DNA of 64,000 nucleotides from Paralichthys olivaceus (lineage: Eukaryota > Chordata > Actinopteri > Pleuronectiformes > Paralichthyidae): NCBI RefSeq assembly GCF_024713975.1, contig NC_091114.1, positions 5,738,001 through 5,802,000 on the forward strand, read 5' to 3'. The position numbers were made by a program, and so were the translations under genes. The notes under the pieces were generated by a model. The model was not told where the DNA came from, did no database searches, and saw only the letters and a program-made list of their open reading frames with translations. This document shows, in pieces, positions 1-64,000 of the stretch. Position 1 is the stretch's first letter; the number at the start of each line of letters is the position of its first letter.

Positions 1-459
1 AACACAAGACATTTCTATATTAGAAGAAAAAAAATATTAATAATTATAATAACAAAACTAACAATCATGTAATAATAATGATCATATAATGATATGAACC
101 ATCTGACCACTATAACAACAATAATGTCCCCATCACAATATTAATAATAATAATAATAATATGATCATGGAGGGAAAAAAAGCTGCACTCATACTTAATA
201 ATTCACGTCTTGTCACCACTAGTGTTATTTATAATAACAGTATATTATAACCATTACTATGATCATCGTTATCATCACCAATAATAATCATAAATAAAAA
301 ATTCTACTTAGTTGTGGTGCACACCACCACCGTCCACTGGTGGTGAAGCATTGTTGGGTCACCGTCAGGAGGGACATTCAGACAGGACAGGATTTTACCA
401 ATTGTTTGGTCCCAACTGTCACAATACATCAAGTGAGACAGTCTCTGGTAGTGACTCAC

Positions 460-1312
460 CATCAACGTCCAGCTTGGTCCCGTTTCCAAACAGTATGTGT
501 CCACATGCAGCGACAGCACAGTAGTAGGTCCCAGCATGAGAACGGTTCAGTCTCATTGACAAGTTGTAGACACAGGTGTGTGTCTGTGTGTCAGGTTTCC
601 TCTCACACTGATCCTTCCTGTCTCCGTGGGTGTAAATGAGTCCTGACTGAGGTTCTTCAGAGATCTTGAACCAGTAAACACTGTGTTCTCCATCACAGGT
701 CCCAGTGTGAACTGTACAGCTGAGAGTCACAGAGCCTCCTGGCTGGATGTTCTCAGACTGATGCACCAGAGCCTGGATGTTCAACCCTGAACCTTTCACA
801 CTGACAGTGACGCCCTCCATGAACTCAAACTCATATGAATTACTCTTGAAACAGTAGTAAGTAGCTGAGTCTGAAAGTTGCACATTTGAGATTTTTAGGT
901 GACTCACAACATCAGTAGATTCCAGAGTGAAGCGTGGATTGTTCTTGAATTCGTTTAATGATGAAAAAGTTTTTGATAACTTGTAAGTCACTGAGATAAT
1001 TCGAGGCTTCTGTCCTGGTGTTTGCTTGAACCAATAAATCATCTTGTCCTCCCTCTCATAGAAATACTTGAAAGTCAAGTTGTCTCCAACATCAACTGAT
1101 CTAAATCCTCTGTGTTGATGAGACAAGATAAAATGATGCATCTGAACTGAAGAGAAAAAGGAGAAAAGCAACACAACAGTTAATTTTATGTGACAGAAAT
1201 GAAATCGTAATCAGCATCAGGACCGACTGAATATTTATAAAACACACAACTCACCCATTTTCCCGAAGAGGAAACATGTCAGGTAGAGAATGAACTGCGG
1301 AGATGTCATCAT
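460..1312 (-). CDS. nitr: U1: NITR-like receptor, 5' part (leader and V-I exons)
   Basis: Leader exon 1255-1312 starts at the paired ATGs (MMTSPQF...), is hydrophobic and ends ATG-G before GTGAGT. The V-I exon 460-1146 follows acceptor TTCTCTTCAG and ends before GTGAGTC, phase 1 at both ends. The V domain covers about residues 20-138. Trp58 and Cys118 are present, but the first Ig cysteine is Tyr47 (FKYFYE). The I domain, 139-248, has cysteines 163, 170, 200, 211, 229 and 234 and ends FGNGTKLDV. The TM and tail exons lie just left of the window; by comparison with U5 and U15 they should be tail A. A start at the ATG inside the leader intron would give a longer open frame but ignores the clear splice sites. 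The protein should sit on the surface of lymphoid or NK-like cells, by family. It differs from U15 mainly in CDR1. Confidence 0.82.
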
Positions 1313-1460
1313 GTTGAAATCGTCGTGTTGAATGACAAACAGCCCGACACCTTCTCCTCTCTTCAGAGTAAAGACTTGTGTTGATTGGCCAGCAGGGCAA
1401 CACTGATCACATGATCACTGCCACCTATGATGTGAATCTTTGTTCTTTAAATAGAATCAC
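1313..1460 (-). promoter_or_regulatory. Candidate promoter of U1
   Basis: On the minus strand an inverted CCAAT (ATTGG on plus, 1384-1388) lies 72 nt before the start codon, and TATTTAAA lies at 1446-1453. The same CCAAT spacing occurs in the other intact genes, for example 7822-7826 for U3 and 14487-14491 for U5. A palindromic GATCACATGATC lies between the two elements. The start of transcription cannot be fixed from sequence alone. Confidence 0.4.
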
Positions 1461-2281
1461 ATGGTGAGAGACATCTGAAGCACTTAGAGTACATTATACT
1501 ACTACTACTACAGGTCTCTACCTCTTCCCTGTTATGCAAGAGATTATGTGTCTTACAATGTTGAAGAATGTGATGGAAAAATCTTGGATCAGCCCCTTTT
1601 GTCCAGATCTGAACCCAAATGTAACGGGTTATTTCTTGGCCCATGCTCTATCCCTCTCCCAACCAGCCAACCAGACAAGACAGGGGTGAAAACATAACTT
1701 CTTAGTGGAGGAAACAGTTTTAAGAGTCACATTGTAGAGTAACTGCTCTTGAAACTTTCAGACGTGACATGTACATGACACACATTCATAGTTTATTACG
1801 ACGTGTGACTTGAAAACAAAAAGATATCAGCAAAGATGAGGGCAGTGGTTTGTGTACTACATCAGAAAATGTGATCATATTTTGTGAGATCTCTTTTTAT
1901 TTGCTGTGGGCTGTGGGGAACTTGTTCTATTGCTTCATCTGCCCCTTTCAAGTCCCACAGACTGGATCATGGCTACCATGTGGTTGATGGAGTAATAAAT
2001 ATGATTTCATGAGTAATGATTTCACATTTTATTTGTGGATATGTGTGAGTTTAACACTTTGAATCCCTATTTCATGACACTGCTTGATGAGAGCAACTTC
2101 TGGTCATTTCATTACTGTTTACTTGAAATATTCTGCTGGGGTGAAGTGAAGACACTGCAGAGACTTCCTGTTTGAAAGTGCTCAGACAAAGAGAGCAGAG
2201 GGTCTTTAGACTGTCGACCACACAGAGGCTAAATAAAGATCCTCACATGTGAGGTGTACGAAATGTTTAAACAACATGTGG
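1461..2281. other. Upstream flank block of U1, no gene
   Basis: No coding signal is seen. The part at about 1540-1690 resembles a sequence widely dispersed in fish genomes (ATCCAAGATTTTTCC and TTCAACATTGTAAGA on minus), so it may be an old repeat; I cannot name it. The remainder is an array-specific flank repeated before every intact leader. Confidence 0.5.
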
Positions 2282-2289
2282 TTAAGTTC

Positions 2290-2760: not shown

Positions 2761-2873
2761 CTACTGCTTTACACTGGAGTACACACATTCACTCCTGTCA
2801 CCGTCTGTTTGTCTTCTTGCTCTGCTGAACCTGTGCTCCATTAAAGCAGAGTAATGTAGGTTGTCTGCATCTT
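2761..2873 (-). pseudogene. Orphan ITIM exon O1 (tail C type)
   Basis: Reading from 2873 down, the frame gives ...DADNLHYSALMEHRF... and ends ECVYSSVKQ and stop, matching the last exon of U9, U11 and U14. LHYSAL is a canonical ITIM. The true acceptor (ATTAGCAG in U9) is missing: homology stops at 2873, where another sequence is joined. A weaker acceptor (GATTAG) at 2944 would leave a 183-nt open frame with an acidic stretch, but this extension is out of frame in O2, O3 and O5. A polyadenylation signal AATAAA (minus) lies at 2698-2703. It is most simply the 3' remnant of a deleted gene. Confidence 0.7.
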
Positions 2874-2879
2874 CATCAT

Positions 2880-3698: not shown

Positions 3699-4929
3699 CT
3701 ACTGCCTGGACACTACATAATGGAGGTCGTCTGCATCTCGGTAACCCTGGTTACAAAACATGTAGAGGCGGATTAGGATATTATATAGATAGAAATAGAA
3801 ATTGAAACGGTAAAAGGATGTTTGAATGGTCATTAACGTCACCTGTGGATTTGTTGTGGGGGGAGCTGATGATCTTGCTTGTGACTCTGGTTATAAAACA
3901 CACAAAATGTTCCTTTATTCAGAAGTTATATTCAGTGAATGCAAGCTATTGGATGAAACTGTTTCCACGTACCTGTGCACTAGCAGCTGTTTCTCTTGAT
4001 TGTTTGATACATGGAGGAAGCCAGAGAAACTCACAGGAAGATGGTGGCTGTCAGAGCTCCGCTCAAGAAATAAACATGAGATCTGGGAGATTTCAACTCA
4101 TCTGCAGAGAACAAGAGCTTATTTCTGTCTTGTTACAACATTTGATTAGAAACTTATACAAAATATTATTTCATTAAACAAGATGAGCTCTGTTACTCAC
4201 GTTTAAAGTCCAGGTCTGCCCCGTTTCCAAACAGTACATGTCCACATGCAGCGACAGCACAGTAGTAGGTCCCAGCATGAGAACGGTTCAGTCTCATTGA
4301 CAAGTTGTAGACACAGGTGTGTGTCTGTGTGTCAGGTTTCCTCTCACACTGATCGTTCCTGTCTCCGTAGGTGTAAATGAGTCTTGACTGAGGTTCAACC
4401 CTGAACCTTTCACACTGACAGTGACGCCCTGTGCAAACGTCAAGACGAACATGTAGCTGTGTGCAGTAGTAAGTACCAGAGTCTGAAACTTTCAGATTAG
4501 AAATCGTCAAGTGATGTGTGCCTTTTTCAGAACCCAGCGTGAAGCGTGGGTTGTCCTTGAATTCATTAAAAAAAGTGGTCTTGGCATTAAACATGTAAAA
4601 GCTGGAGATGAACCTCCTGTGCTGGAGTTTGTTTGTACCAGAGGAGCCATGCTGAATCCTCACTTTTATAGAAACACGGCAAAGTCACATTGTCTCCAAC
4701 TTTGTCTGATGATGACCGTTTGTCTTGATGCACGATGGAGGGCAGATAAGATGAGCTGTGAGCTGAAGGGCAAGGAGAATAAGAACAGATGAAATGAAAA
4801 TAGAAAGAAAATATGATGAGATATTGCATGAAGAGTTATTGTGAAGAAAAGGTCACAGAAACACAACTCACCCATGTTCCCTGGGAAGAGACATGTGAGA
4901 TAGAAGACAAACTTGAGAGAAGTCATCAT
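3699..4929 (-). pseudogene. U2: type-2 V NITR pseudogene with tail D
   Basis: All five exons can be placed: leader 4872-4929 (MMTSLKF...), V-I 4201-4762, TM 3973-4101, cytoplasmic 3843-3886 and last 3699-3746. The V domain begins well (DKVGDNVTLPCFYK, WYKQTPAQE) but shifts frame near 4610 and reaches TAA; the downstream half is open in another frame (NEFKDNPRFTLGSEKG). Part of the I domain, from its start to the YWFK region, is missing, and the J-like motif is FGNGADLDF. The TM exon reads SGALTATIFL then TGA, with a further TAG before its donor. The last exon encodes LHYVVSRQ and stop, so the ITIM +3 hydrophobic residue is lost. It is nearly identical to U16. AATAAA (minus) lies at 3547-3552. 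Confidence 0.8.
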
Positions 4930-5700: not shown

Positions 5701-7750
5701 CTACAGTTTAACACCTGAGTACACACATTCAACCCTGGTGTTGTCCCTCTGTCGTCTTGATCTGCTGGCCACTTTCACATTTAACGCAGCGTAATGGAGG
5801 CCATCTGCATCTTGGTTGCCCTAGAAACGACATATAAGTACATCAAGATGGCTCCTGATGAAAAACGTATTTGTTGTGGAATGTAAATTTCACACTAAAA
5901 AGATTATATTTACCTCTGCATTTGTTGTGGAGGGAGATGATGGTTGTGTACTAGACTCTGGGTATGAAACACATATAAAAACTTTGAGTCACTCTTTTGT
6001 CCACACATGTACTGTTAGGTGCCTTTACCTCTTAACCTGATTTGAACCTTGGTTTTTAATTTAATGTGAAACATGAAACTTTAATTCATGTTCTATGATT
6101 CATGCATTTATTTATGAAATGTTTTAAGGTGTCCTTATCTAGAAAGGTGCCGTGAAATAAAATGTGTTATTATCATTTTGCTCAAAATCTAAACTGAACT
6201 CTATCTAGAGATGAGTGGTTACCTGAACATCTCCAGCATGTTCTCTTGTTTATCTTGTACAGTAACACAGCCAGCAAAACACTGATGGTGAATGTCAAAG
6301 CTCCACTCAGGAAAAACACCATCCAGTTCACCTCATCTGCAACAGGAGAAATTCTAGTAATTCTGTTTCCTCTTTTTTAATTTTTCATTAAACTTTGCAA
6401 GAGACAAGACATTTCTATATAAAAAGAAAACATATTATTAATAAATATAATATCAAAACTAATAATCATGTAATAATATTAACACTCATAATCGCATAAT
6501 AATTATTATCATATAATGATATGAACCATCTGACCACTATAACAACAATAATGTCCCCATCACAATAATAATAATAGTAATAATAATATGATCATTAAGA
6601 GAAAAAAAGAAAAGGAAAAAAAGCTGCACTCATACTTAATAATTCACGTCTTGTCACCACTAGTGTTATTTATAATAACAGTATATTATAACCATTACTA
6701 TGATCATCGTTATCATCACCAATAATAATCATGAATAAAAAATTCTACTTAGTTGTGGTGCACACCACCACCGTCCACTGGTGGTGAAGCATTGTTGGGT
6801 CACCGTCAGGAGGGACATTCAGACAGGACAGGATTTTACCAATTGTTTGGTCCCAACTGTCACAATACATCAAGTGAGACAGTCTCTGGTAGTGACTCAC
6901 CATCAACGTCCAGCTTGGTCCCGTTTCCAAACAGTATGTGTCCACATGCAGCGACAGCACAGTAGTAGGTCCCAGCATGAGAACGGTTCAGTCTCAGTGA
7001 CAAGTTGTAGACACAGGTGTGTGTCTGTGTGTCAGGTTTCCTCTCACACTGATCCTTCCTGTCTCCGTGGGTGTAAATGAGTCCTGACTGAGGTTCTTCA
7101 GAGTTCTTGAACCAGTAAACACTGTGTTCTCCACCACAGGTCCCAGTGTGAACTGTACAGCTGAGAGTCACAGAGCCTCCTGGCTGGATGTTCTCAGACT
7201 GATGCACCAGAGCCTGGATGTTCAACCCTGAACCTTTCACACTGACAGTGACGCCCTCCATGAACTCAAACACATATGAATGACTCTTTAAACAGTAGTA
7301 AGTAGCTGAGTCTGAAAGTTGCACATCTGAGATTTTTAGGTGACTCACAACATCAGTAGATTCCAGAGTGAAGCGTGGATTGTTCTTGAATTCATTAAAT
7401 AACAAAAATTCTTTCCTGACTTTGTAAGTCACTGAGATAGTTCGAGGCTTCTGTCCTGGTGTTTGCTTGAACCAATAAATCTTATAGTCCCCCTCATAGA
7501 AACACTGGAAAGTCAAGTTGTCTCCAACATCAACTGATTTAAATCCTCTGTGTTGATGAGACAAGATAAAATGATGCATCTGAACTGAAGAGAAAAAGGA
7601 GAAAAGCAAAACAACAGTTAATTTTATGTGACAGAAATGAAATCGTAATCAGCATCAGGACCGACTGAATATTTATAAAACACACAACTCACCCATTTTC
7701 CCGAAGAGGAAACATGTCAGGTAGAGAATGAACTGCGGAGATGTCATCAT
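5701..7750 (-). CDS. nitr: U3: NITR-like ITIM receptor, tail A
   Basis: Exons: leader 7693-7750, V-I 6901-7584 (684 nt), TM 6223-6336, cytoplasmic 5914-5957, last 5701-5820, giving 339 residues. CDR1-like loop YEGDYKI is one residue shorter than in U5; the CDR2-like loop is KVRKEFLLF and the CDR3 region CLKSHSYVFEF. The V ends in a degenerate J (EGVTVSVK). The I domain has six cysteines and FGNGTKLDV. TM exon reads DEVNWMVFFLSGALTF, with Met where other tail A copies have Thr. The tail has ITIM LHYAAL and a second ECVYSGVKL tyrosine. The 3' UTR holds a plus-strand C tract near 5531; AATAAA (minus) lies at 5305-5310. It sits between pseudogene U2 and orphan exon O2. Confidence 0.85.
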
Positions 7751-9202: not shown

Positions 9203-9315
9203 CTACTGCTTTACACTGGAGTACACACATTCACTCCCGTCACCGTCTGTTTGTCTTCTTGCTCTGCTGAACCTGTGCTCCATTAAAGCAGAGTAATGTA
9301 GGTTGTCTGCATCTT
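9203..9315 (-). pseudogene. Orphan ITIM exon O2 (tail C type)
   Basis: Frame ...DNLHYSALMEHRF...VYSSVKQ and stop, as in O1. The upstream extension differs by a length change from O1, so the extended frame is not kept. No matching TM or Ig exon lies to its right before U4. Confidence 0.65.
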
Positions 9316-9319
9316 CATC

Positions 9320-10142: not shown

Positions 10143-11658
10143 CTACTGCCTCACACTCAAGTACACACACTCACTCCAGGTATCATCCCTCTGTCCTCTG
10201 GATCTGTTCATCTTTATCTCCCTGTGAGCAATGTAGCAGGGGTCGTCTTCACTCTGCTCATCCTGGGCATGAGAAACACTCAGTCAAGTTGTTGACCATG
10301 ACAGACAATGTGCACAAGTGTTTGAAGAGTAACACAACAGCTCATCTTTACCTTTGCATTTAATTTGGAGGATGGAGCACGAGGATCTGAAAAGACAAAA
10401 TACTTTTTAATAATATCAAATAATGATCACTGGGATCATGAAGAACAGATAGTAGCATTTACCTGGAACCCTCATCATGCATATTGAGAAAGACAGTAAA
10501 ACACTCAGCACGGTCGTGAATGCCAAAGTTGCACTCAAGAAAACCACCAGCCTGTCCAACTCATCTGCAAAGAGACAGAGGACAGGAGACATCACACACT
10601 TTTAACCTAAAGTAATGATCACTATTCATCACATGAGACTCACCATCAACGTCCAGCTTGGTCCCATTTCCAAACAGTCTGTGTCCACATGCAGCGACAG
10701 CACAGTAGTAGGTCCCAGCATGAGAACGGTTCAGTCTCATTGACAAGTTGTAGACACAGGTGTATGTCTGTGTGTCAGGTTTCCTCTCACACTGATCCTT
10801 CCTGTCTCCGTGGGTGTAAATGAGTCCTGACTGAGGTTCTTCAGAGTTCTTGAACCAGTAAACACTGTGTTCTCCACCACAGGTCCCAGTGTGAACTGTA
10901 CAGCTGAGAGTCACAGAGCCTCCTGGCTGGATGTTCTCAGACTGATGCACCAGAGCCTGGATGTTCAACCCTGAACCTTTCACACTGACAGTGACGCCCT
11001 CCGTAAACTCAAACATATATGAATGACTCTTTAAACAGTAGTAAGTAGCTGAGTCTGAAAGTTGCACATCTGAGATATTTAGGTGACTGACAACATCAGT
11101 AGATTCCAGAGTGAAGCGTGGATTGTTCTTTAATTCATTCAATAACGAAATTTCTTTAGAGAATTTGTAAGTCAATGCGATAATTCGAGGCTTCTGTCCT
11201 GGTGTTTGCTTGAACCAATAAATCATCTTGTCCAACCTCTCATAGAAACACTGGAAAGTCAAGTTGTCTCCAACATCAACTGATGTAAATGCACTCTCTT
11301 GTTGAGACAAGATAAAATGATGCATCTGAACTGAAGTGAAGCGTGGATTGTTCTTGAATTCATTAAATAATGAAAAATCTTTAGAGAATTTGTAAGTCAC
11401 TGAGATAATTCAAGGCTTCTGTCCCGGTGTTTGCTTGTACCAATAAATCCTAATGTCCTCCCTCTTGTTGAAACACTGGAAAGTCAAGTTGTCTCCAACA
11501 TCAACTGATCTAAATCCTCTGTCTTGTTGAGACGAGATGAATAGTGAATAGTGTGTCGTAGCCTTTGGCTCAGTAGGTGTTATCATAGTCCAGTTTACAT
11601 GCTCATGTCTTACCCATGCTAATTAGATCCATGTTGTCCAAAACAGCTGAAATCTCAT
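10143..11658 (-). pseudogene. U4: NITR-like gene with fused double-V exon, tail B
   Basis: Tail B exons are sound: TM 10463-10564 (uncharged VVFLSATLAFTTVLSVLL), cytoplasmic 10352-10386 (DPRAPSSKLNAK), last 10143-10262 (DEQSEDDPCYIAH...ECVYLSVRQ). The I domain and second V are open at 10644-11330. Upstream, a first partial V (about 11331-11545) is joined at FKNNPRFT directly to SVQMHHF, so CTTCAG before TTCAGATG survives inside the exon as a possible acceptor. The first V has TGA in place of the CGA Arg of KPRII, and no good acceptor lies before it. The leader-like region (ATGAGATTTCAG from 11658) meets a stop after 11 codons and is out of phase. Probably a pseudogene, though splicing to the internal acceptor would give an open receptor lacking a usual signal peptide. 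Confidence 0.7.
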
Positions 11659-12384: not shown

Positions 12385-14415
12385 CTACAGTTTAACACCT
12401 GAGTACACACATTCATCCCTGGTGTTGTCCCTCTGTCGTCTTGATCTGCTGGCCACTTTCACATTTATCGCAGCGTAATGGAGGCCATCTGCATCTTGGT
12501 TGCCCTAGAAACGACATATAAGTACATCAAGATGGCTCCTGATGAAAAACGTGTTTGTTGCGGAATGTAAATTTCACACTTAAAAAGATTATATTTACCT
12601 CTGCATTTGTTGTGGAGGGAGATGATGGTTGTGTACAAGACTCTGGGTATGAAACACATATAAAAACTTTGAGTCACTCTTTTGTCCACACATGTACTGT
12701 TAGGTGCCTTTACCTCTTAACCTGATTTGAACCTTGGTTTATAATTTAATGTGAAACATGAAACTTTAATTCATGTTTTATGAGTCATGCATTTATTTAT
12801 GAAATGTTTTAAGGTGTCCTTATCTAGAAAGGTGCCATGAAATAAAATGTATTATTATCATTTTGCTCAAAAGCTAAACTGAACTCTATCTAGAGATGAG
12901 TGGTTACCTGAACATCTCCAGCATGTTCTCTTGTTTATCTTGTACAGTAACACAGCCAGCAAAACACTGATGGTGAATGTCAAAGCTCCACTCAGGAAAA
13001 ACACCGTCCAGTTCACCTCATCTGCAACAGGAGAAATTCTAGTAATTCTATTTCATCTTTTTTAATTTTTAATTTAACTTTGCAAGAGACAACACAAGAC
13101 ATTTCTATATTAGAAGAAAAAAAATATTAATAATTATAATAACAAAACTAACAATCATGTAATAATAATGATCATATAATGATATGAACCATCTGACCAC
13201 TATAACAACAATAATGTCCCCATCACAATATTAATAATAGTAATAATAATATGACCATTGAGGGAAAAAAAGAAAAGAAAAAAAGCTGCACTCATACTTA
13301 ACAATTCACTTCTTGTCACCACTAGTGTTATTTATAATAACAGTATATTATAACCATTACTATGATCATCGTTATCATCACCAATAATAATCATAAATAA
13401 AAAATTCTACTTAGTTGCGGTGCACACCACCACCGTCCACTGGTGGTGAAGCATTGTTGGGTCACCGTCAGGAGGGACATTCAGACAGGACAGGATTTTA
13501 CCAATTGTTTGGTCCCAACTGTCACAATACATCAAGTGAGACAGTCTCTGGTAGTGACTCACCATCAACGTCCAGCTTGGTCCCGTTTCCAAACAGTATG
13601 TGTCCACATGCAGCGACAGCACAGTAGTAGGTCCCAGCATGAGAACGGTTCAGTCTCATTGACAAGTTGTAGACACAGGTGTGTGTCTGTGTGTCAGGTT
13701 TCCTCTCACACTGATCCTTCCTGTCTCCGTGGGTGTAAATGAGTCCTGACTGAGGTTCTTCAGAGTTCTTGAACCAGTAAACACTGTGTTCTCCATCACA
13801 GGTCCCAGTGTGAACTGTACAGCTGAGAGTCACAGAGCCTCCTGACTGGATGTTCTCAGACTGATGCACCAGAGCCTGGATGTTCAACCCTGAACCTTTC
13901 ACACTGACAGTGATTCCCTCCGTGAACTCAAACTCAGATGAACGACTCTTTGAACAGTAGTAAGTAGCTGAGTCTGAAAGTTGCACTTCTGAGATTTTTA
14001 GGTGACTATCAACATCAGTAGATTCCAGAGTGAAGCGTGAATTGTTCTTGAATTCGTTTAATAATGAAAACATTTTTGATAACTTGTAAGCGATTGAGAT
14101 AATTCGAGGCTTCTGTCCTGGTGTTTGCTTGAACCAATATATCTTATTGTCCTCCCTCTCATAGAAACACTGGAAAGTCAAGTTGTCTCCAACATCAACT
14201 GATGTAAATCCACTCTCTTGTTGAGACAAGATAAAATGATGCATCTGAACTGAAGAGAAAAAGGAGAAAAGCAAAATAACAGTTAAGTTTATGTGACAGA
14301 AATGAAATCTTAATCAGCATCAGGACCGACTGAATATTTATAAAACACACAACTCACCCATTTTCCCGAAGAGGAAACATGTCAGGTAGAGAATGAACTG
14401 CGGAGATGTCATCAT
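12385..14415 (-). CDS. nitr: U5: NITR-like ITIM receptor, tail A (reference copy)
   Basis: Exons: leader 14358-14415, V-I 13563-14249, TM 12908-13021, cytoplasmic 12599-12642, last 12385-12504; 1023 nt, 340 residues, phases 1-1-1-0. Signal peptide 1-19; V about 20-138 with Cys47, Trp58, Cys118; I domain 139-248 with six cysteines and FGNGTKLDV; TM about 254-275 (VFFLSGALTFTISVLLAVLL), no charge in the core; then KINKR. The tail has LHYAAI around Tyr311, a valid ITIM by the Ile/Val/Leu rule, and VYSGV around Tyr335. ITIMs recruit SHP phosphatases in this family. CDR loops: YEREDNKI, KLSKMFSLL, CSKSRSSEFEF. N-glycosylation sequons NLT, NLS, NRS and NGT are present. AATAAA (minus) at 11998-12003. 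The intron between TM and V-I is AT-rich with AAT runs. Confidence 0.88.
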
Positions 14416-15864: not shown

Positions 15865-15977
15865 CTACTGCTTTACACTGGAGTACACACATTCACTCCT
15901 GTCACCGTCTGTTTGTCTTCTTGCTCTGCTGAACCTGTGCTCCATTAAAGCAGAGTAATGTAGGTTGTCTGCATCTT
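15865..15977 (-). pseudogene. Orphan ITIM exon O3 (tail C type)
   Basis: Same frame and stop as O1 (LHYSAL, VYSSVKQ). The native acceptor is replaced by the spacer sequence. Confidence 0.65.
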
Positions 15978-16650
15978 CATCATCAGCATTATCATCTTCA
16001 TGGTTCAAGTTTTCAGCACCAATTCTTTCTTTTTCATAATCTGTCTTTTCTAATCCTGAAACTTCAGAGGATTTTGTTATTCACAATGTCGAGCTACGTC
16101 ACTTACTGCCCTTTAGTCTCCAACAACCTTTCTACCAAAGATGAGCTTTCCACTTATTCTGTGAAGCTGTCACGATCATTTCCTTTAGTCTTCTTCTCCT
16201 GCTGCTGCTCACGCTACATTAAAGGCTCAGTTCACTCAAATTACTTGTCTTTCCCCTGAGCCTTGTGCAGTTTTTGCTTTAAACTATATTGAGGTTTTGA
16301 GATCTGCATCTCTGAGATCAGTGCTGCCGCCAACGTCCTCACTTCATAGAGGTGAACATAGTCTTAAATCACTTTGTCTCATCAGCAGATAACATGTTTG
16401 GTTGGTACACACAATGATAATAAGTCATGCAAACCTAACTAAAGCACTACTAGGGCCCACAAGGAAATGATCAAAAGATGCTTGCATGTGGTCACCATGT
16501 TTCCGACAGATAGGTGTGGTCTGTGAACGATGAAACTCGGCTTCACAAGAAAGCTCATGCTGCTGCAGGATGCACGTCGTCCACTGTTACCTTCATTACT
16601 TTGCATGAACAGACACAGTAGAAAAGAGTCATGCACACAATGGAAAACTA
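15978..16650. other. Conserved spacer right of O3
   Basis: Copy of the block at 2880-3545. No gene recognised. Confidence 0.45.
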
Positions 16651-34499: not shown

Positions 34500-35816
34500 C
34501 TACTGCTTTACACTGGAGTACACACATTCAGTCCTGTCACCGTCTGTTTGTCTTCTTGCTCTGCTGAACCTGTGCTCCATTAAAGCAGCGTAATGTAGGT
34601 TGTCTGCATCTTGATGAACCTGCTAATAAAACATAAAAGTCATTTGCCATATTAGGAGGACATGTGTCTGAACGTAGCTGATGTAGACAAGTGTTGAAAA
34701 CAGAATTATTAAAGTCTAACTTCACCCAAAGTCCATGGAAATTTAAAAACTGCTGTGAGAATGCAGCTCTGGGAGGTGGGGCTAAGACACATGTACGACA
34801 TACGAATTAGTTTGCTAAAGCTAAGTTATCTATATTGTCTATGGTCAACAACTCCCGTAGCAGCACACACACTTCTGCAACAGAAATATCGCTGTGTAAA
34901 TATATATAAAACTTTCATGACGAAGAGACGTCCCAAATGGTTTACTCTACGGAAGCATTGTTCACTTTATTACCACTCTCAATCTGTGGCATGGACAATG
35001 TTTTCTTGACGGTTATTTTCTTCAATGTACAAATAAGTATATTAAAATCTAAATGCATGATGATGTTATTAAAATCTGTTTTAGAGAACAACTAGAATGA
35101 CGTTGTGAAGAGCGCAAACTGGCACCAAGGCCCAACACTCGCTTCTAATTCAATCGAGCTGGACCAACTTGACGTCATTCATGTCTATAACTTGAGTTGA
35201 AATATTTCTACAACATTTGCGTGATGCAATATCATGAAAGCCAATCAGCACTGGCAGGTCCTGGCACCCGTCCGAGCTAGTGGGTGCTCAAACTGGCCAC
35301 TGATCAGCTTCAGGTAGCACTGGGTTGTGTTTTAGTGTGAACGTGGATAAGCACAAATCCTGCAACGTGTGAATGCATCATAAGAGATTTCCCTTTCTGT
35401 CTTTCAATGAATCTAGATGCTCAAGTAACATGTTGCAACACTAACTCATGAATGTCTTTGCTGTTCTTCAGTATCATGCAAACTGAATTCACATCAACAA
35501 ATATAAATGATGAGGATTACCCCACCTGAGCACTGGCAGCAGTTTGTCTTGGACGCTCTTTGTGTTGTGTAAGCCAGAGAAACAACCAGGATTGTGGTGA
35601 ACGCCAAAGCTCCACTCAAGAAATACACCAAGTGAAGATAGTCCACCACCTCTGCAGAGAGCCAGACATCAGGAGACATCACTGAGCTTTCCACCACTAT
35701 TTATCAAATGTCACAATCTTTAAAAAAACTTTTTTTTACCTTTAAAGTCCACTTTGGTGCCGTTTCCAAACAGTATGTGTCCACATGCAGCGACAGCACA
35801 GTAGTAGGTCCCAGCA
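34500..35816 (-). pseudogene. U11: truncated tail C NITR gene
   Basis: Last exon 34500-34619 (LHYAAL, VYSSVKQ) and TM exon 35526-35651 match U9. The short cytoplasmic exon is missing: relative to U9 about 430 bp, including that exon, are deleted near 34960. Only 77 nt of the V-I exon remain (35740-35816, from the FGNGTKVDF end to GTYYCAV). The rest of the ectodomain and the leader are lost where a gypsy-type gag fragment begins. It cannot be a working receptor. Confidence 0.85.
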
Positions 35817-47433: not shown

Positions 47434-49449
47434 CTACAGTTTAACACCTGAGTACACACATTCATCCCTTGTGTTGTCCCTCTGTCGTCTTGATCTGCTG
47501 GCCACTTTCACATTTAACGCAGCGTAATGGAGGCCATCTGCATCTTGGTTGCCCTGGAAACGACATATAAGTACATCAAGATGGCTCCTGATGAAAAACG
47601 TGTTTGTTGCGGAATGTAAATTTCACACTTAAAAAGATTATATTTACCTCTGCATTTGTTGTGGAGGGAGATGATGGTTGTGTACAAGACTCTGGGTATG
47701 AAACACATATAAAAACTTTGAGTCACTCTTTTGTCCACACATGTACTGTTAGGTGCCTTTACCTCTTAACCTGATTTGAACCTTGGTTTTTAATTTAATG
47801 TGAAACATGAAACTTTAATTCATGTTTTATGATTCATGCATTTATTTATGAAATGTTTTAAGGTGTCCTTATCTAGAAAGGTGCCGTGAAATAAATGTAT
47901 TATTATCATTTTGCTCAAAAGCTAAACTGAACTCTATCTAGAGATGAGTGGTTACCTGAACATCTCCAGCATGTTCTCTTGTTTATCTTGTACAGTAACA
48001 CAGCCAGCAAAACACTGATGGTGAATGTCAAAGCTCCACTCAGGAAAAACACCGTCCAGTTCACCTCATCTGCAACAGGAGAAATTCTAGTAATTCTGTC
48101 TCTTCTTTTTAAAATTTCATTTAACTTTGCAAGAGACAACACAAGACATTTCTATATTAGAAGAAAAAAAATATTAATAATTATAATAACAAAACTAACA
48201 ATCATGTAATAATAATGATCATATAATGATATGAACCATCTGACCACTATAACAACAATAATGTCCCCATCACAATATTAATAATAATAATAATAATATG
48301 ATCATGGAGGGAAAAAAAGCTGCACTCATACTTAATAATTCACGTCTTGTCACCACTAGTGTTATTTATAATAACAGTATATTATAACCATTACTATGAT
48401 CATCGTTATCATCACCAATAATAATCATAAATAAAAAATTCTACTTAGTTGCGGTGCACACCACCACCGTCCACTGGTGGTGAAGCATTGTTGGGTCACC
48501 GTCAGGAGGGACATTCAGACAGGACAGGATTTTACCAATTGTTTGGTCCCAACTGTCACAATACATCAAGTGAGACAGTCTCTGGTAGTGACTCACCATC
48601 AACGTCCAGCTTGGTCCCGTTTCCAAACAGTATGTGTCCACATGCAGCGACAGCACAGTAGTAGGTCCCAGCATGAGAACGGTTCAGTCTCATTGACAAG
48701 TTGTAGACACAGGTGTGTGTCTGTGTGTCAGGTTTCCTCTCACACTGATCCTTCCTGTCTCCGTGGGTGTAAATGAGTCCTGACTGAGGTTCTTCAGAGA
48801 TCTTGAACCAGTAAACACTGTGTTCTCCATCACAGGTCCCAGTGTGAACTGTACAGCTGAGAGTCACAGAGCCTCCTGGCTGGATGTTCTCAGACTGATG
48901 CACCAGAGCCTGGATGTTCAACCCTGAACCTTTCACACTGACAGTGACGCCCTCCATGAACTCAAACTCATATGAATTACTCTTGAAACAGTAGTAAGTA
49001 GCTGAGTCTGAAAGTTGCACATTTGAGATTTTTAGGTGACTCACAACATCAGTAGATTCCAGAGTGAAGCGTGGATTGTTCTTGAATTCGTTTAATGATG
49101 AAAAAGTTTTTGATAACTTGTAAGTCACTGAGATAATTCGAGGCTTCTGTCCTGGTGTTTGCTTGAACCAATAAATCATCTCGTCCCCCTTCTCATAGAA
49201 ATACTTGAAAGTCAAGTTGTCTCCAACATCAACTGATCTAAATCCTCTGTGTTGATGAGACAAGATAAAATGATGCATCTGAACTGAAGAGAAAAAGGAG
49301 AAAAGCAAAACAACAGTTAATTTTATGTGACAGAAATGAAATCGTAATCAGCATCAGGACCGACTGAATATTTATAAAACACACAACTCACCCATTTTCC
49401 CGAAGAGGAAACATGTCAGGTAGAGAATGAACTGCGGAGATGTCATCAT
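47434..49449 (-). CDS. nitr: U15: NITR-like ITIM receptor, tail A, V lacks first Cys
   Basis: Exons: leader 49392-49449, V-I 48597-49283, TM 47956-48069, cytoplasmic 47648-47691, last 47434-47553; 340 residues. It is the counterpart of U1 and shows the tail that U1 should have. The V reads FKYFYEKGDEMI (Tyr47), CDR2 KLSKTFSSL, CDR3 CFKSNSYEFEF. CDR1 matches U8, while the N-terminus and CDR2 match U1, so the V is a mosaic of those two. I domain canonical; ITIM LHYAAL and VYSGV. AATAAA (minus) at 47040-47045. Confidence 0.86.
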
Positions 49450-50417
49450 GTTGAAATCGTCATGTTGAATGACAAACAGCCCGACACCTTCTCCTCTCTT
49501 CAGAGTAAAGACTTGTGTTGATTGGCCAGCAGGGCAACACTGATCACATGATCACTGCTACCTATGATGTGAATCTTTGTTCTTTAAATAGAATCACATG
49601 GTGAGAGACATCTGAAGCACTTAGAGTACATTATACTACTACTACTACACGTCTCTACCTCTTCCCTGTTATGTAAGAGATTATGTGTCTTACAATGTTG
49701 AAGAATGTGATGGAAAAATCTTGGATCATCCCTTTTGTCCAGATCTGAACCCAAATGTAACGGGTTATTTCTTGGCCCATGCTCTATCCCTCTCCCAACC
49801 AGCCAACCAGACAAGACAGGGGTGAAAACATAACTTCTTAGTGGAGGAAACAGTTTTAAGAGTCACATTGTAGAGTAACTGCTCTTGAAACTTTCAGACG
49901 TGACATGTACATGACACACATTCATAGTTTATTACGACGTGTGACTTGAAAACAAAAAGATATCAGCAAAGATGAGGGCAGTGGTTTGTGTACTACATCA
50001 GAAAATGTGATCATGTTTTGTGAGATCTCTTTTTATTTGCTGTGGGCTGTGGGGAACGTGTTCTATTGCTTCATCTGCCCCTTTCAAGTCCCACAGACTG
50101 GATCATGGCTACCATGTGGTTGATGGAGTAATAAATATGATTTCATGAGTAATGATTTCACATTTTATTTGTGGATATGTGTGAGTTTAACACTTTGAAT
50201 CCCTATTTCATGACACTGCTTGATGAGAGCAACTTCTGGTCATTTCATTACTGTTTACTTGAAATATTCTGCTGGGCTGAAGTGAAGACACTGCAGAGAC
50301 TTCCTGTTTGAAAGTGCTCAGACAAAGAGAGCAGAGGGTCTTTAGACTGTCGACCACACAGAGGCTAAATAAAGATCCTCACATGTGAGGTGTACGAAAT
50401 GTTTAAACAACATGTGG
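49450..50417. other. Upstream flank block of U15
   Basis: Counterpart of 1313-2281, with the CCAAT at the usual distance. No gene is seen. Confidence 0.45.
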
Positions 50418-50896: not shown

Positions 50897-51009
50897 CTAC
50901 TGCTTTACACTGGAGTACACACATTCACTCCTGTCACCGTCTGTTTGTCTTCTTGCTCTGCTGAACCTGTGCTCCATTAAAGCAGCGTAATGTAGGTTGT
51001 CTGCATCTT
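50897..51009 (-). pseudogene. Orphan ITIM exon O5 (tail C type)
   Basis: As O1, but the motif is LHYAAL, as in U9, rather than LHYSAL. Confidence 0.65.
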
Positions 51010-51690
51010 CATCATCAGCATTATCATCTTCATGGTTCACGTTTTCAGCACCAATTCTTTCTTTTTCATAATCTGTCTTTTCTAATCCTGAAACTTCAGA
51101 GGATTTTGTTATTCACAATGTCGAGCTACGTCACTTACTGCCCTTTAGTCTCCAACAACCTTTCTACCAAAGATGAGCTTTCCACTTATTCTGTGACGCT
51201 GTCACGATCATTTCCTTTAGTTTCCTTCTTCTCCTGCTGCTGCTCACGCTACATTAAAGGCTCAGTTCACTCAAATGACTTGTCTTTCCCCTGAGCCTTG
51301 TGCAGTTTTTGCTTTAAACTATATTGAGGTTTTGAGATCTGCATCTCTGAGATCAGTGCTGCCGCCAACGTCCTCACTTCATAGAGGTGAACGTAGTCTT
51401 AAATCACTTTGTCTCATCAGCAGATAACATGTTTGGTTGGTACACACAATGATAATAAGTCATGCAAACCTAACTAAAGCACTACTAGGGCAAACAAGGA
51501 AATGATCAAAAGATGCTTGCATGTGGTCACCATGTTTCTGACAGATAGGTGTGGTCTGTGAACGGTGAAACTCGGCTTCACAAGAAAGCTCATGCTGCGG
51601 CAGGATGCACGTCGTCCACTGTTACCTTCATTACTTTGCATGAACAGACACAGTAGAAAAGAGTCATGCACACAATGGAAAACTAGTTTT
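51010..51690. other. Conserved spacer right of O5
   Basis: Copy of the block at 2880-3545. No gene recognised. Confidence 0.45.
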
Positions 51691-51839: not shown

Positions 51840-53056
51840 CTACTGCCTGGACACTACATAATGGAGGTCGTCTGCATCTCGGTAACCCTGGTTACAAAAC
51901 ATGTAGAGGCGGATTAGGATATTATATAGATAGAAAAAGAAATTGAAACGGTAAAAGGATGTTTGAATGGTCATTAACGTCACCTGTGGATTTGTTGTGG
52001 GGGGAGCTGATGATCTTGCTTGTGACTCTGGTTATAAAACACACAAAATGTTCCTTTATTCAGAAGTTATATTCAGTGAATGCAAGCTATTGGATGAAAC
52101 TGTTTCCACGTACCTGTGCACTAGCAGCTGTTTCTCTTGATTGTTTGATACATGGAGGAAGCCAGAGAAACTCACAGGAAGATGGTGGCTGTCAGAGCTC
52201 CGCTCAAGAAATAAACATGAGATCTGGGAGATTTCAACTCATCTGCAGAGAACAAGAGCTTATTTCTGTCTTGTTACAACATTTGATTAGAAACTTATAC
52301 AAAATATTATTTCATTAAACAAGATGAGCTCTGTTACTCACGTTTAAAGTCCAGGTCTGCCCCGTTTCCAAACAGTACATGTCCACATGCAGCGACAGCA
52401 CAGTAGTAGGTCCCAGCATGAGAACGGTTCAGTCTCATTGACAAGTTGTAGACACAGGTGTGTGTCTGTGTGTCAGGTTTCCTCTCACACTGATCGTTCC
52501 TGTCTCCGTAGGTGTAAATGAGTCTTGACTGAGGTTCAACCCTGAACCTTTCACACTGACAGTGACGCCCTGTGCAAACGTCAAGACGAACATGTAGCTG
52601 TGTGCAGTAGTAAGTACCAGAGTCTGAAACTTTCAGATTAGAAATCGTCAAGTGATGTGTGCCTTTTTCAGAACCCAGCATCCTTGAATTCATTAAAAAA
52701 AGTGGTCTTGGCATTAAACATGTAAAAGCTGGAGATGAACCTCCTGTGCTGGAGTTTGTTTGTACCAGAGGAGCCATGCTGAATCCTCACTTTTATAGAA
52801 ACACGGCAAAGTCACATTGTCTCCAACTTTGTCTGATGATGACCGTTTGTCTTGATGCACGATGGAGGGCAGATAAGATGAGCTGTGAGCTGAAGGGCAA
52901 GGAGAATAAGAACAGATGAAATGAAAATAGAAAGAAAATATGATGAGATATTGCATGAAGAGTTATTGTGAAGAAAAGGTCACAGAAACACAACTCAACC
53001 ATGTTCCCTGGGAAGAGACATGTGAGATAGAAGACAAACTTGAGAGAAGTCATCAT
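51840..53056 (-). pseudogene. U16: type-2 V NITR pseudogene with tail D
   Basis: Leader 52999-53056, V-I 52342-52889, TM 52114-52242, cytoplasmic 51984-52027, last 51840-51887. It is nearly identical to U2 including the I-domain deletion, the FGNGADLDF motif, the TM stops and LHYVVSRQ, but has in addition the 14-nt V deletion found in U7 and U14. The leader donor is changed: after ATGG the sequence is TTGAGT rather than GTGAGT, so the normal splice is lost. Confidence 0.83.
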
Positions 53057-53810: not shown

Positions 53811-55852
53811 CTACAGTTTAACACCTGAGTACACACATTCATCCCTGGTGTTGTCCCTCTGTCGTCTTGATCTGCTGGCCACTTTCACATTTAACGCAGC
53901 GTAATGGAGGCCATCTGCATCTTGGTTGCCCTGGAAACGACATATAAGTACATCAAGTTCCAAATTCCTGATGAAAAACGTATTTGTTGTGGAATGTAAA
54001 TTTCACACTTAAAAAGATTATATTTACCTCTGCATTTGTTGTGGAGGGAGATGATGGTTGTGTACAAGACTCTGGGTATGAGACACATATAAAAACTTTG
54101 AGTCACTCTTTTGTCCACACATGTACTGTTAGGTGCCTTTACCTCTTAACCTGATTTGAACCTTGGTTTTTAATTTAATGTGAAACATGAAACTTTAATT
54201 CATGTTTTATGAGTCATGCATTTATTTATGAAATGTTTTAAGGTGTCCTTATCTAGAAAGGTGCCGTGAAATTAAATGTGTTATTATCATTTTGCTCAAA
54301 AGCTAAACTGAACTCTATCTAGAGATGAGTGGTTACCTGAACATCTCCAGCATGTTCTCTTGTTTATCTTGTACAGTAACACAGCCAGCAAAACACTGAT
54401 GGTGAATGTCAAAGCTCCACTCAGGAAAAACACCGTCCAGTTCACCTCATCTGCAACAGGAGAAATTCTAGTAATTCTGTCTCTTCTTTTAAAAATTTCA
54501 TTTAACTTTGCAAGACAAGAGACAACACAAGACATTTCTATATTAAAAGAAAAAAAATATTAATTATTATAATATCAAAACTAATAATCATGTAATAATA
54601 ATGATCATATAATGATATGAACCATCTGACCACTATAACAACAATAATGTCCCCATCACAATAATAATAATAGTAATAATAATATGATCATTGAGGGAAA
54701 AAAAGGAAAGGAAAAAAAGCTGCACTCATACTTAATAATTCACGTCTTGTCACCACTAGTGTTATTTATAATAACAGTATATTATAACCATTACTATGAT
54801 CATTGTTATCATCACCAATAATAATCATAAATATAAAATTCTATTTAGTTGCGGTGCACACCACCACCGTCCACTGGTGGTGAAGCATTGTTGGGTCACC
54901 GTCAGGAGGGACATTCAGACAGGACAGGATTTTACCAATTGTTTGGTCCCAACTGTCACAATACATCAAGTGAGACAGTCTCTGGTAGTGACTCACCATC
55001 AACGTCCAGCTTGGTCCCGTTTCCAAACAGTATGTGTCCACATGCAGCGACAGCACAGTAGTAGGTCCCAGCATGAGAACGGTTCAGTGTCATTGACAAG
55101 TTGTAGACACAGGTGTGTGTCTGTGTGTCAGGTTTCCTCTCACACTGATCCTTCCTGTCTCCGTGGGTGTAAATGAGTCCTGACTGAGGTTCTTCAGAGA
55201 TCTTGAACCAGGAAACACTGTGTTCTCCATCACAGGTCCCAGTGTGAACTGTACAGCTGAGAGTCACAGAGCCTCCTGGCTGGATGTTCTCAGACTGATG
55301 CACCAGAGCCTGGATGTTCAACCCTGAACCTTTCACACTGACAGTGACGCCCTCCATAGACTCAAACACATATGAACGACTCTTTAAACAGTAGTAAGTA
55401 GCTGAGTCTGAAAGTTGCACATCTGAGATATTTAGGTGACTGACAACATCAGTAGATTCCAGAGTGAAGCGTGAATTGTTCTTGAATTCATTGAATAATG
55501 AATTCATTTTCGATAACTTGTAAGTCATTGAGATAATTCGAGGCTTCTGTCCTGGTGTTTGCTTGTACCAATAAATCATCTTGTCCTCCCTCTCATAGAA
55601 ACATTTGAAAGTCAAGTTGTCTCCAACATCAACTGATTTAAATCCACTATCTTGTTGATGAGACAAGATAAAATGATGCATCTGAACTGAAGAGAAAAAG
55701 GAGAAAAGCAAAATAACAGTTAATTTTATGTGACAGAAATGAAATCGTAATCAGCATCAGGACCGACTGAATATTTATAAAACACACAACTCACCCATTT
55801 TCCCGAAGAGGAAACATGTCAGGTAGAGAATGAACTGCGGAGATGTCATCAT
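53811..55852 (-). CDS. nitr: U17: NITR-like ITIM receptor, tail A
   Basis: Exons: leader 55795-55852, V-I 54997-55686 (690 nt), TM 54337-54450, cytoplasmic 54028-54071, last 53811-53930; 1026 nt, 341 residues. The N-terminal strand has an extra residue (SHQQDSGF). The V has FKCFYEREDKMI, WYKQTPGQ, KLSKMNSLF and CLKSRSYVFES. In the I domain HSVSWF replaces HSVYWF, so the usual Tyr before the core Trp is Ser. LHYAAL and VYSGV are present. The 3' UTR C tract is shorter (about 8) than in the other tail A genes. AATAAA (minus) lies at 53432-53437. Confidence 0.85.
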
Positions 55853-57299: not shown

Positions 57300-57412
57300 C
57301 TACTGCTTTACACTGGAGTACACACATTCACTCCTGTCACCGTCTGTTTGTCTTCTTGCTCTGCTGAACCTGTGCTCCATTAAAGCAGAGTAATGTAGGT
57401 TGTCTGCATCTT
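57300..57412 (-). pseudogene. Orphan ITIM exon O6 (tail C type)
   Basis: LHYSAL and VYSSVKQ as in O1. The upstream extension keeps the same length as in O1 and O4. Confidence 0.65.
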
Positions 57413-58090
57413 CATCATCAGCATTATCATCTTCATGGTTCAAGTTTTCAGCACCAATCATATTTTTCATAATCTGTCTTTTCTAATCCTGAAACTTCAG
57501 AGGATTTTGTTATTCACAATGTCGAGCTACGTCACTTACTGCCCTTTAGTCTCCAACAACCTTTCTACCAAAGATGAGCTTTCCACTTATTCTGTGAAGC
57601 TGTCACGATCATTTCCTTTAGTTTTCTTCTCCTGCTGCTGCTCACGCTACATTAAAGGCTCAGTTCACTCAAATTACTTGTCTTTCCCCTGAGCCTTGTG
57701 CAGTTTTTGCTTTAAACTATATTGGGGTTTTGAGATCTGCATCTCTGAGATCAGTGCTGCCGCCAACGTCCTCACTTCATAGAGGTGAACATAGTCTTAA
57801 ATCACTTTGTCTCATCAGCAGATAACATGTTTGGTTGGTACACACAATGATAATAAGTCATGCAAACCTAACTAAAGCACTACTAGGGCAAACAAGGAAA
57901 TGATCAAAAGATGCTTGCATGTGGTCACCATGTTTCCGACAGATAGGTGTGGTCTGTGAACGGTGAAACTCGGCTTCACAAGAAAGCTCATGCTGCGGCA
58001 GGATGCACGTCGTCCACTGTTACCTTCATTACTTTGCATGAACAGACACAGTAGAAAAGAGTCATGCACACAATGGAAAACTAGTTTTAT
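57413..58090. other. Conserved spacer right of O6
   Basis: Copy of the block at 2880-3545. No gene recognised. Confidence 0.45.
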
Positions 58091-58237: not shown

Positions 58238-59595
58238 CTACTGCCTCACACTCAAGTACACACACTCACTCCAGGTATCATCCCTCTGTCCTCTGGATCT
58301 GTTCATCTTTATCTCCCTGTGAGCAATGTAGCAGGGGTCGTCTTCACTCTGCTCATCCTGGGAATGAGAAACACTCAGTCAAGTTGTTGACCATGACAGA
58401 CAATGTGCACAAGTGTTTGAAGAGTAACACAACAGCTCATCTTTACCTTTGCATTTAATTTGGAGGATGGAGCACGAGGATCTGAAAAGACAGAAAGACT
58501 TTTTAATAATGTCATATAATGATCACTGGGATCATGAAGAACAGATAGTAGCATTTACCTGGAACCCTCATCATGCATATTGAGAAAGCCAGTAAAATAC
58601 TCAGCACGGTCGTGAATGCCGAAGTTGCACTCAAGAAAACCACCAGCCTGTCCAACTCATCTGCAAAGAGACAGAGGACAGGAGACGTCACACACTTTTA
58701 ACCTAAAGTAATGATCACTATTCATCACATGAGACTCACCATCAACGTCCAGCTTGGTCCCGTTTCCAAACAGTATGTGTCCACATGCAGCGACAGCACA
58801 GTAGTAGGTCCCAGCATGAGAACGGTTCAGTCTCATTGACAAGTTGTAGACACAGGTGTGTGTCTGTGTGTCAGGTTTCCTCTCACACTGATCGTTCCTG
58901 TCTCCGTGGGTGTAAATGAGTCCTGACTGAGGTTCTTCAGAGTTCTTGAACCAGTAAACACTGTGTTCTCCATCACAGGTCCCAGTGTGAACTGTACAGC
59001 TGAGAGTCACAGAGCCTCCTGGCTGGATGTTCTCAGACTGATGCACCAGAGCCTGGATGTTCAACCCTGAACCTTTCACACTGACAGTGATTCCCTCCGT
59101 AAACTCAAACTCAAATGAATTACTCTTTGAACAGTAGTAAGTAGCTGAGTCTGAAAGTTGCACATCTGAGATTTTTAGGTGACTCACAACATCAGTAGAT
59201 TCCAGAGTGAAGCGTGAATTGTTCTTGAATTCATTAAATAATAATGAAAAATCTTTTGAGAATTTGTAAGCGATTGAGATAAATCGAGGCTTCTGTCCTG
59301 GTGTTTGCTTGAACCAATATATCTTATTGTCCTCCCTCTCATAGAAACACTGGAAAGTCAAGTTGTCTCCAACATCAACTGATCTAAATCCTCTGTGTTG
59401 ATGAGACAAGATAAAATGATGCATCTGAACTGAAGAGAAAAAGGAGAAAAGCAAAATAACAGTTAATTTTATGTGACAGAAATGAAATCGTAATCAGCAT
59501 CAGGACCGACTGAATATTTATAAAACGCACAACTCACCCATTTTCCCGAAGAGGAAACATGTCAGGTAGAGAATGAACTGCGGAGATGTCATCAT
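58238..59595 (-). CDS. nitr: U18: NITR-like receptor, tail B
   Basis: Exons: leader 59538-59595, V-I 58740-59429 (690 nt), TM 58559-58660, cytoplasmic 58447-58481, last 58238-58357; 1005 nt, 334 residues. The CDR2-like loop has one extra residue (KFSKDFSLLFNEF). The V also has FQCFYEREDNKI and CSKSNSFEFEF, and the J-like end EGITVSVK is shared with U5. The tail has PCYIAH and ECVYLSVRQ, with no canonical ITIM. It occupies the same place in the duplicated block as U4, but has an intact leader and a single V. AATAAA (minus) lies at 58086-58091. Confidence 0.85.
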
Positions 59596-63030: not shown

Positions 63031-63375
63031 TGAAATCTCATGGTTTAGATAGAAAACCTTTTACTGCTGGTGCAGCAGTACAGCAGAGAGAGACTTCCGT
63101 GTGACTGTGTGTTTAATTAATAACGTCAGTCATAGGTCACAGCAAAAAAGACAGTGAAAATACTTTTACCACCGTTTCCATGTCTGTTGAATATGTCACA
63201 AATATGAATATTTGCAACACTTCCTGTTCCTGTTTCAAAGTAAAACACACTATCTCTCTGTCGACTGAATCCATTCATTTGTTTTAACAAGGTTTATATT
63301 GTTATTATTGTAGCACAGGAAGATGCACAGCTTCATATCATAGTGTTCTGGCATTTAGTTGAGAAGGAACCTTCT
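63031..63375. other. Type-3 upstream remnant and U19 3' spacer
   Basis: From 63031 the sequence matches 11653-11990, 18316-18650 and 37430-37760. The LINE boundary falls exactly at the ATGAGATTTCA of the type-3 leader, so the leader itself is gone. The TATA-like sequence reads CTATCTAAAC here. No gene is seen. Confidence 0.55.
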
Positions 63376-63770
63376 TTTATTCAAGGAAATACAGACGTCA
63401 TCACCTCACGTAGCAGCTTCTCAGCAGACACACTCCCTACGTGAACACACAGCAGATCAATGACGCAGCCGTCACTCGCTGCACACACACACAGACGGAG
63501 CCACAAACTTTCATTACATGAAGTTTAATCATTGTTTTCCAACTGTCATCGTCAAAGTGTCAAACCAACAAAGACCAACAGCAACTGTCCAAACATTGCC
63601 CCCCCCCCCCCACACGTTGTTGTTGTATTTGATCATTAATCACAAAAAAAGCAACATTTATATTTGGAAAAAGGATAAAAAAGCATAATAGACCAGAATC
63701 ATGCTCCACCACTAAAGAGAGACTGAGAAATCCCACATCTCAAACAAAGACGGTTGTAAAACACACAATT

Positions 63771-64000
63771 CTACAGTTTAACACCTGAGTACACACATTC
63801 ATCCCTGGTGTTGTCCCTCTGTCGTCTTGATCTGCTGGCCACTTTCACATTTAACGCAGCGTAATGGAGGCCATCTGCATCTTGGTTGCCCTAGAAACGA
63901 CATATAAGTACATCAAGATGGCTCCTGATGAAAAACGTATTTGTTGTGGAATGTAAATTTCACACTAAAATTATTATATTTACCTCTGCATTTGTTGTGG
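63771..64000 (-). CDS. nitr: U19: NITR-like gene, tail A 3' end (partial)
   Basis: Last exon 63771-63890 (GNQDADGLHYAALN...VYSGVKL-type, with normal acceptor TTTCTAG) and the first part of the short cytoplasmic exon from 63984 to the window end. The TM, V-I and leader exons must lie to the right of the window. AATAAA (minus) lies at 63376-63381. The tail looks intact; whether the gene is whole cannot be seen. Confidence 0.8.

Follow-up and report, generated by a model that had tools for sequence, protein, structure and literature searches.

NITRs are regarded as fish equivalents of natural killer (NK) receptors, and two questions about them concern the origin of their V diversity and the way in which recognition is coupled to signal strength. 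The present analysis concerns a 64,000-nucleotide stretch of the Paralichthys olivaceus genome (588 Mb in 25 contigs), positions 5738001-5802000 of contig NC_091114.1 (C22:5738001-5802000), hereafter the window. Sequence evidence supports the assignment of the window to a teleost NITR array, a known family. The surrounding array covers 262 kb and holds 43 intact five-exon genes, including both genes cut by the window edges.

The closest described systems are the NITRs of medaka chr18 and pufferfish, which, as portrayed in the sections of PMC2442602 on their anatomy, have V and I domains in one exon, a six-cysteine I domain, a J-like motif, separate leader, transmembrane (TM) and two cytoplasmic exons, an immunoreceptor tyrosine-based inhibitory motif (ITIM) with an ITIM-like motif, and a tandem cluster with men1 on the same chromosome. 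The P. olivaceus array is alike in each of these features. It is unlike medaka in that its 43 intact genes have one leader/V family, lie on one strand and carry nearly the same V-I sequence ahead of three tails, whereas medaka V regions were sorted into 24 families at 70% identity, with birth-and-death favoured over concerted evolution (PMC2442602, same sections). In primate CD300A/CD300C, ectodomains are likewise kept alike, reported as gene conversion, while the tails diverge; those are two genes with opposing signals, in contrast to the dozens of genes with three living tails and no charged TM core found here (CD300 passages of PMC12447643). Atlantic herring also has an NITR cluster, placed in a ~400 kb region of high diversity, and copy-number variation is reported for such regions; the herring passages of PMC11088111 do not describe ectodomains common to several tails. 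A recent species-specific expansion of type I immunoglobulin (Ig) receptors, many with inhibitory motifs, is a likeness to KIR (PMC2442602, in part). No activating form was seen among the 43 intact genes, unlike in KIR. The KIR genes have other Ig domains and another genome position than this NITR array.

A 5' cassette shared across divergent 3' tails

A cassette of ~1.06 kb, made up of promoter, leader, V and I, is common to the 43 intact genes and stands ahead of three old tails, termed A, B and D. Its sharing across tail types is put forward as new here; priority is unproven. On its 5' side the cassette is bounded by a (TAG)n run that lies ~200 nt upstream of the ATG, and at the 3' side the switch falls within ~20 nt of the end of the V-I exon. 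Sites distinguishing B from A start 14 nt before the exon end, within the J-like stretch. Tails A and D are told apart by a single site 8 nt ahead of the exon end, and they diverge lastingly from 7 nt into intron 2. Two unlike upstream contexts were recognized, each occurring with all three tails (chi2 p 0.53).

Distances within and between tail types were compared for a non-redundant set of 35 genes, eight of the 43 having been dropped because their V-I exon lay within 1% of a kept one. Labels were permuted 5000 times, and the counts given are permutations reaching the observed difference. Within and between tail types, respectively, distances were.0137 and.0133 for the upstream 200 nt (3143/5000),.0790 and.0770 for V (3687/5000),.0118 and.0118 for I without its last 14 nt (2538/5000), and.0137 and.0176 for intron 1 (291/5000). 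The last 14 nt of the V-I exon gave.016 and.239, intron 2 gave.006 and.411, and TM gave.004 and.329, each with 0/5000. In the full set of 43 genes, intron 2, TM and tail exons are 33-42% apart between tail types. Since promoter, V and I distances are the same within and between types, the 5' half is independent of the tail carried, with the exception of a weak signal in intron 1. The nearest V neighbour was an A gene for all five D genes, and nearly identical V sequences were found before different tails, as in the pairs 5901521 (D) and 5852530 (A), at a distance of.0028, and 5885779 (B) and 5715558 (A), at.0084.

Plain recent birth-and-death would explain the likeness of the 5' halves by young copies throughout, with no recombination between tail types. 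It is the view published for NITRs in the portions of PMC2442602 dealing with their evolution, and the very high identity, the many pseudogenes and the large block duplications fit it. In the same genes, however, TM and intron 2 are 33-41% apart against 1-2% for promoter and I, and the V sequences look mosaic. Because one duplication age cannot fit both gene halves, unless intron 2 and TM are hypermutable, birth-and-death is refuted as the sole process, and as a full account we consider it very unlikely.

The two leaderless units of the window, with tails D and C, each contain a 225-nt tandem V-exon duplication (11110-11538 and 17773-18201). A lesion common to units with such unlike tails is a further sign of tail exchange.

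V-domain diversity and probable ectodomain exchange

In the 35 genes nucleotide diversity (pi) was.078 for V (.073-.082),.0135 upstream,.0157 for intron 1 and.0118 for I, so that V is five to seven times as diverse as its flanks. Within the I domain, silent sites (pS.0099) are as low in diversity as replacement sites (.0121). These values bear on the proposal that selection alone is enough to preserve the likeness of leader and I domain as V and tails grow apart. Leader and I domain are indeed coding, and the cysteines are invariant; yet the noncoding upstream region and intron 1 are near I in diversity, and the silent sites of I are no freer than its replacement sites. Equality of the two gene halves in silent-site and intron divergence between tail types would favour the proposal, whereas the observed values are the opposite. 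We regard selection alone as hardly credible.

V diversity is greatest at the three complementarity-determining regions (CDR1, CDR2 and CDR3), where replacement diversity (pN) was.18,.21 and.12, respectively, against.03-.06 in the frameworks (35 genes). Such peaks could result from positive selection or local hypermutation in each gene after duplication rather than from shuffled old segments, and the title of a sea bass NITR paper names positive selection. Against this, pN/pS was.96 for V,.79 for CDRs and 1.10 for frameworks, with all intervals spanning zero difference, and silent-site diversity in the CDRs, based on few sites, was raised too; positive selection in the CDRs was thus unsupported by the counting test. 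CDR segments also recur in different combinations, five of the 25 CDR2 types being paired with at least two CDR3 types. Applied to the window's 12 open V-I exons, one from an edge-cut gene and two from leaderless units, a purpose-made PHI-type permutation test strongly indicated mosaic rather than tree-like relationships (0/2000 permutations). We read this as old V segments being retained and recombined while their surroundings homogenise; hypermutation or selection, though unlikely, is the main rival.

Based on these results, the locus is very probably a teleost NITR array that is expanding, belongs to the single-exon V+I class and has had its ectodomains exchanged across tails by recombination. 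Exchange is favoured because the 5' half ignores tail type while V is far more diverse than its surroundings. Tandem and segmental duplication would multiply the units, and unequal crossing-over or gene conversion within the 1.06 kb cassette would swap ectodomains between them; we infer one or the other of these processes as the agent. The 3' halves are old paralogs with unlike introns, and the unlike introns 2 would halt exchange near the J-like motif. The result would be a single V-domain pool served by several signalling tails. A possible extension, which we hold tentatively, is that the evolving unit is the ectodomain cassette from (TAG)n to J-like motif and not the gene. Copied between genes, it may carry recognition specificities from strongly inhibitory tails (A, B) to the weak or poorly signalling one (D) and the reverse, and keep old mosaic CDR segments circulating, as a germline mix-and-match system.

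Several points weigh against exchange across tails. Intron 1 is weakly tied to tail type (57/5000 on 43 genes, in addition to the 35-gene value above). The nearest V neighbour is a B gene for nine of the 11 B genes; this is probably due largely to recent block duplications, and mixing is nonetheless incomplete. Concerted evolution was judged less likely to be primary in medaka (PMC2442602, in its medaka sections). Finally, blocks of 99.2% and 98.7% identity outside the window could include assembly duplicates, which would cut the gene counts but leave the 35-gene result intact.

These blocks also raise the question of whether part of the array is an assembly artefact, with two haplotypes placed end to end. 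The 99.2% pair (22.6 kb; C22:5822915-5845538 and 5916186-5938838) and the 98.7% pair (28 kb; C22:5838112-5866203 and 5937784-5965874), 93-100 kb apart, are each either a recent duplication or an assembly duplicate, and a 13.9 kb pair at 97.6% lies mostly inside the window. Among array self-matches of at least 6 kb, however, there are 36, of which 33 measure 6-10 kb at 96-99% identity with many spacings, unlike one doubled haplotype, and the results hold on the 35 non-redundant genes. An artefact of this kind is therefore improbable.

Gene content of the window and array

Exon modules were located by BLAST (E up to 1e-3) with reference exons taken from five units. Every leader (L), V-I, TM and tail match in the window is on the minus strand, in agreement with the initial annotation, and no plus-strand match was found across the contiguous 280.5 kb of C22:5690001-5970500. 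In a sensitive tblastn search, matches on the plus strand or outside the units were confined to E 0.39-0.76 and were judged to be chance. The same annotation had proposed at least 19 units, with eight pseudogenes or remnants. Eighteen were counted, with the 225-nt V duplications at 11541 and 18204 kept inside their respective units: nine complete genes, two edge-cut genes and seven broken or partial units (starting at 53056, 46490, 35816, 21082, 18204, 11541 and 4929), together with six lone C2_B exons. Its nine complete genes each proved to have five exons, an open frame and eight canonical splice dinucleotides, which is the definition of complete used here; followed beyond the window, the two edge-cut genes are likewise complete, each of A type, with L at C22:5739312 and C22:5803794, and the six orphan exons are all C2_B tail exons. 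The features are listed below, with C1 and C2 denoting cytoplasmic exons and suffixes the exon class.

63771..64000, minus: edge-cut gene of which C2_A and part of C1_A fall in the window; complete in the genome (L C22:5803794, tail A)
58238..59595, minus: complete NITR gene, tail D; L 59595-59538, V-I 59429-58740, TM 58660-58559, C1 58481-58447, C2 58357-58238
57300..57415, minus: orphan C2_B tail exon without AG acceptor
53811..55852, minus: complete NITR gene, tail A
51840..53056, minus: pseudogene, L_C donor broken, V_C frame broken, TM_C with stops, tail C
50897..51012, minus: orphan C2_B tail exon without AG acceptor
48611..49649, minus: example of the shared ~1.06 kb cassette, with (TAG)n, ~200 nt upstream, leader, intron 1 and V-I exon to the J-like motif
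47434..49449, minus: complete NITR gene, tail A; L 49449-49392, V-I 49283-48597, TM 48069-47956, C1 47691-47648, C2 47553-47434
43541..46490, minus: pseudogene, L_C, V_C frame broken, I part open, tail B
38159..40216, minus: complete NITR gene, tail A
34503..35816, minus: remnant, last 73-77 nt of V-I exon, TM_B and C2_B; gag-like open reading frame (ORF) adjoining
29538..30892, minus: complete NITR gene, tail D, second motif CVYLSM
28600..28715, minus: orphan C2_B tail exon without AG acceptor
24974..27481, minus: complete NITR gene, tail B; L 27481-27424, V-I 27330-26644, TM 26556-26431, C1 25702-25668, C2 25090-24974
21852..23852, minus: complete NITR gene, tail A
19047..21082, minus: pseudogene, L_C, V_C frame broken, tail A
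16805..18204, minus: leaderless unit, 225-nt tandem V duplication, open V-I 17993-17307, TM_C with stops, tail C
15865..15980, minus: orphan C2_B tail exon without AG acceptor
12385..14415, minus: complete NITR gene, tail A
10143..11541, minus: leaderless unit, 225-nt tandem V duplication, open V-I 11330-10644, tail D
9203..9318, minus: orphan C2_B tail exon without AG acceptor
5701..7750, minus: complete NITR gene, tail A
3699..4929, minus: pseudogene, L_C, V_C frame broken, I part deleted, TM_C with stops, tail C
2761..2876, minus: orphan C2_B tail exon without AG acceptor
460..1312, minus: edge-cut gene, L and V-I; tail A just outside (C22:5737931-5737310)

Exon lengths in the complete genes are 58 nt for L, 684-690 for V-I, 102-126 for TM, 35-44 for C1 and 117-120 for C2, and the coding length of all 43 intact array genes is 332-341 codons. 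Across C22:5690001-5970500, 69 units with a V or I piece were identified, the intact ones carrying tail A (27), B (11) or D (5). The window has 63 self-matches of at least 900 nt; as they extend over 0.9-11.4 kb at 93-99% identity, the repetition of units is not due to chance.

By best match, leader and V belong to classes L_A and V_A in all 43 intact genes, while none of the 14 L_C/V_C units is intact. Eight of the ten longest V_C matches have an identical stop tally (3 TGA and 2 TAA), which suggests, from tallies rather than stop positions, that the L_C/V_C units were dead before multiplying. Stops are present in all 11 TM_C exons. V_A was found with A, B, C and D tails, and V_C with A, B and C tails.

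Remains of mobile elements were also observed. A LINE-like element with reverse-transcriptase ORFs (RVT_1 in two of three) lies at 61508-63060 on the minus strand, where it separates the right edge-cut gene from the one that follows. At 35742-36173, also minus, a gag-like ORF (Retrotrans_gag) adjoins the last 73-77 nt of a V-I exon; this abutment is an element or deletion junction within a receptor gene. Rfam and tRNA scans of the window gave no matches.

Family assignment and signalling tails

According to the portion of PMC2442602 that defines the family, NITRs have an authentic I domain with six conserved cysteines and a J motif FGXGTXLX(V/L). In the array, six cysteine columns of the I domain are each kept in 43/43 intact genes. 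The I domain ends in FG.GTK in all 43, with the full J motif including LDV in 31 (26 A and 5 D); LDI occurs in one A gene, and the B genes have LDF (3/11) or VDF/VNF (8/11). No FGXG was seen at the V end on inspection by eye. The N-terminal domain of two window genes matched Pfam V-set (E 9e-26 and 5e-25), and V and I share one exon in the C22 array genes. The first V cysteine is replaced by Tyr in four of the 43 array genes, three of them in the window (V-I 460-1146, 23000-23686 and 48597-49283), and the usual V disulfide therefore cannot form in these. A PDB sequence search with V-I, V and I returned antibody-type chains in the top 60, which shows the Ig fold only; as it does not separate NITR from antibody domains, it was dropped as a discriminator. 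A structure predicted for the V-I protein from 11 near-identical sequences was of poor quality (pLDDT 47.5), and it was set aside rather than taken into a fold search.

Synteny was compared with the linkage data given in PMC2442602. There, V and I share an exon in pufferfish and in the medaka clusters of chr18 and chr21, and occupy two exons on medaka chr10; men1 is linked to the chr18 cluster, whereas SPON2, FGFRL1 and CSTF2 are linked to the one on chr10. All eight Menin exon matches are on C22 at 2.69 Mb, ~3 Mb from the array. Among 150 candidates scored with a V-I query, matches were on C22, on C9 and, as one weak V match, on C5. In the two stretches read of the second cluster (C9:20.876-20.925 Mb), V and I occupy separate exons, and the I domains end in CGEILFGHG and CGNILFGGG. 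CSTF2 lies on C9 at 18.62 Mb. Of the Spond_N genes, in which SPON2 and paralogs are not distinguished, one is 0.37 Mb from the cluster, at C9 21.29 Mb; others are at 13.15 Mb on the same contig and on contigs C7 and C1. For these two markers, the C9 two-exon cluster with CSTF2 and a Spond_N gene matches the medaka chr10 pattern. The six-cysteine I domain, J-like motif, one-exon V-I, ITIM tails and men1 and C9 synteny together bear out the initial annotation of an NITR-like cluster.

At the right edge of the array, an NITR I exon of a more distant kind has a TM exon below it (C22:5969088-5969831), so that further families extend the NITR region on this side. Two copies of a different V-set Ig exon closely flank the array on its left (C22:5694080-5694574 and 5700920-5701426), with Pfam V-set for the one copy tested.

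The tails were classified by the definitions in the motif section of PMC2442602, where an ITIM is (S/I/V/L)xYxx(I/V/L) and an ITIM-like motif is without one end residue. Tail A has the ITIM LHYAAL or LHYAAI and the ITIM-like CVYSGV (27/27), and tail B has LHYAAL and the ITIM-like CVYSSV (11/11). Tail D has no ITIM (0/5); it has the ITIM-like CVYLSV in four of five genes and CVYLSM, which belongs to neither class, in the fifth. An ITIM or ITIM-like motif is thus present in 42 of the 43 intact genes. YxxM was considered as a conserved tail D motif and dropped, being present in one of the five D genes. Orphan C2_B exons were likewise dropped as alternative tails, the AG acceptor being missing at the expected place in 19/19, with other acceptors not searched by program. 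As no K, R or H is present in the 21-residue TM core of any of the 43 intact genes, no NITR9-type activating form is seen among them.

The receptors should be type I membrane proteins with leader, V, I, TM and a tyrosine-motif tail. Judging from their motifs and from NITR work cited in PMC2442602, tails A and B should be inhibitory via the ITIM plus ITIM-like motif; tail D, with at most an ITIM-like motif, would signal weakly. Ligand recognition should be seated in the V domain, and we infer both ligand binding and expression.

The family is known, and this array is a large, unusually uniform member of it, in which cross-tail exchange is useful and testable. It contrasts with the view, in the medaka sections of PMC2442602, that concerted evolution is not primary. 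With the same V domain before different tails, and with introns and flanks able to date exchange, the array is a clean test.

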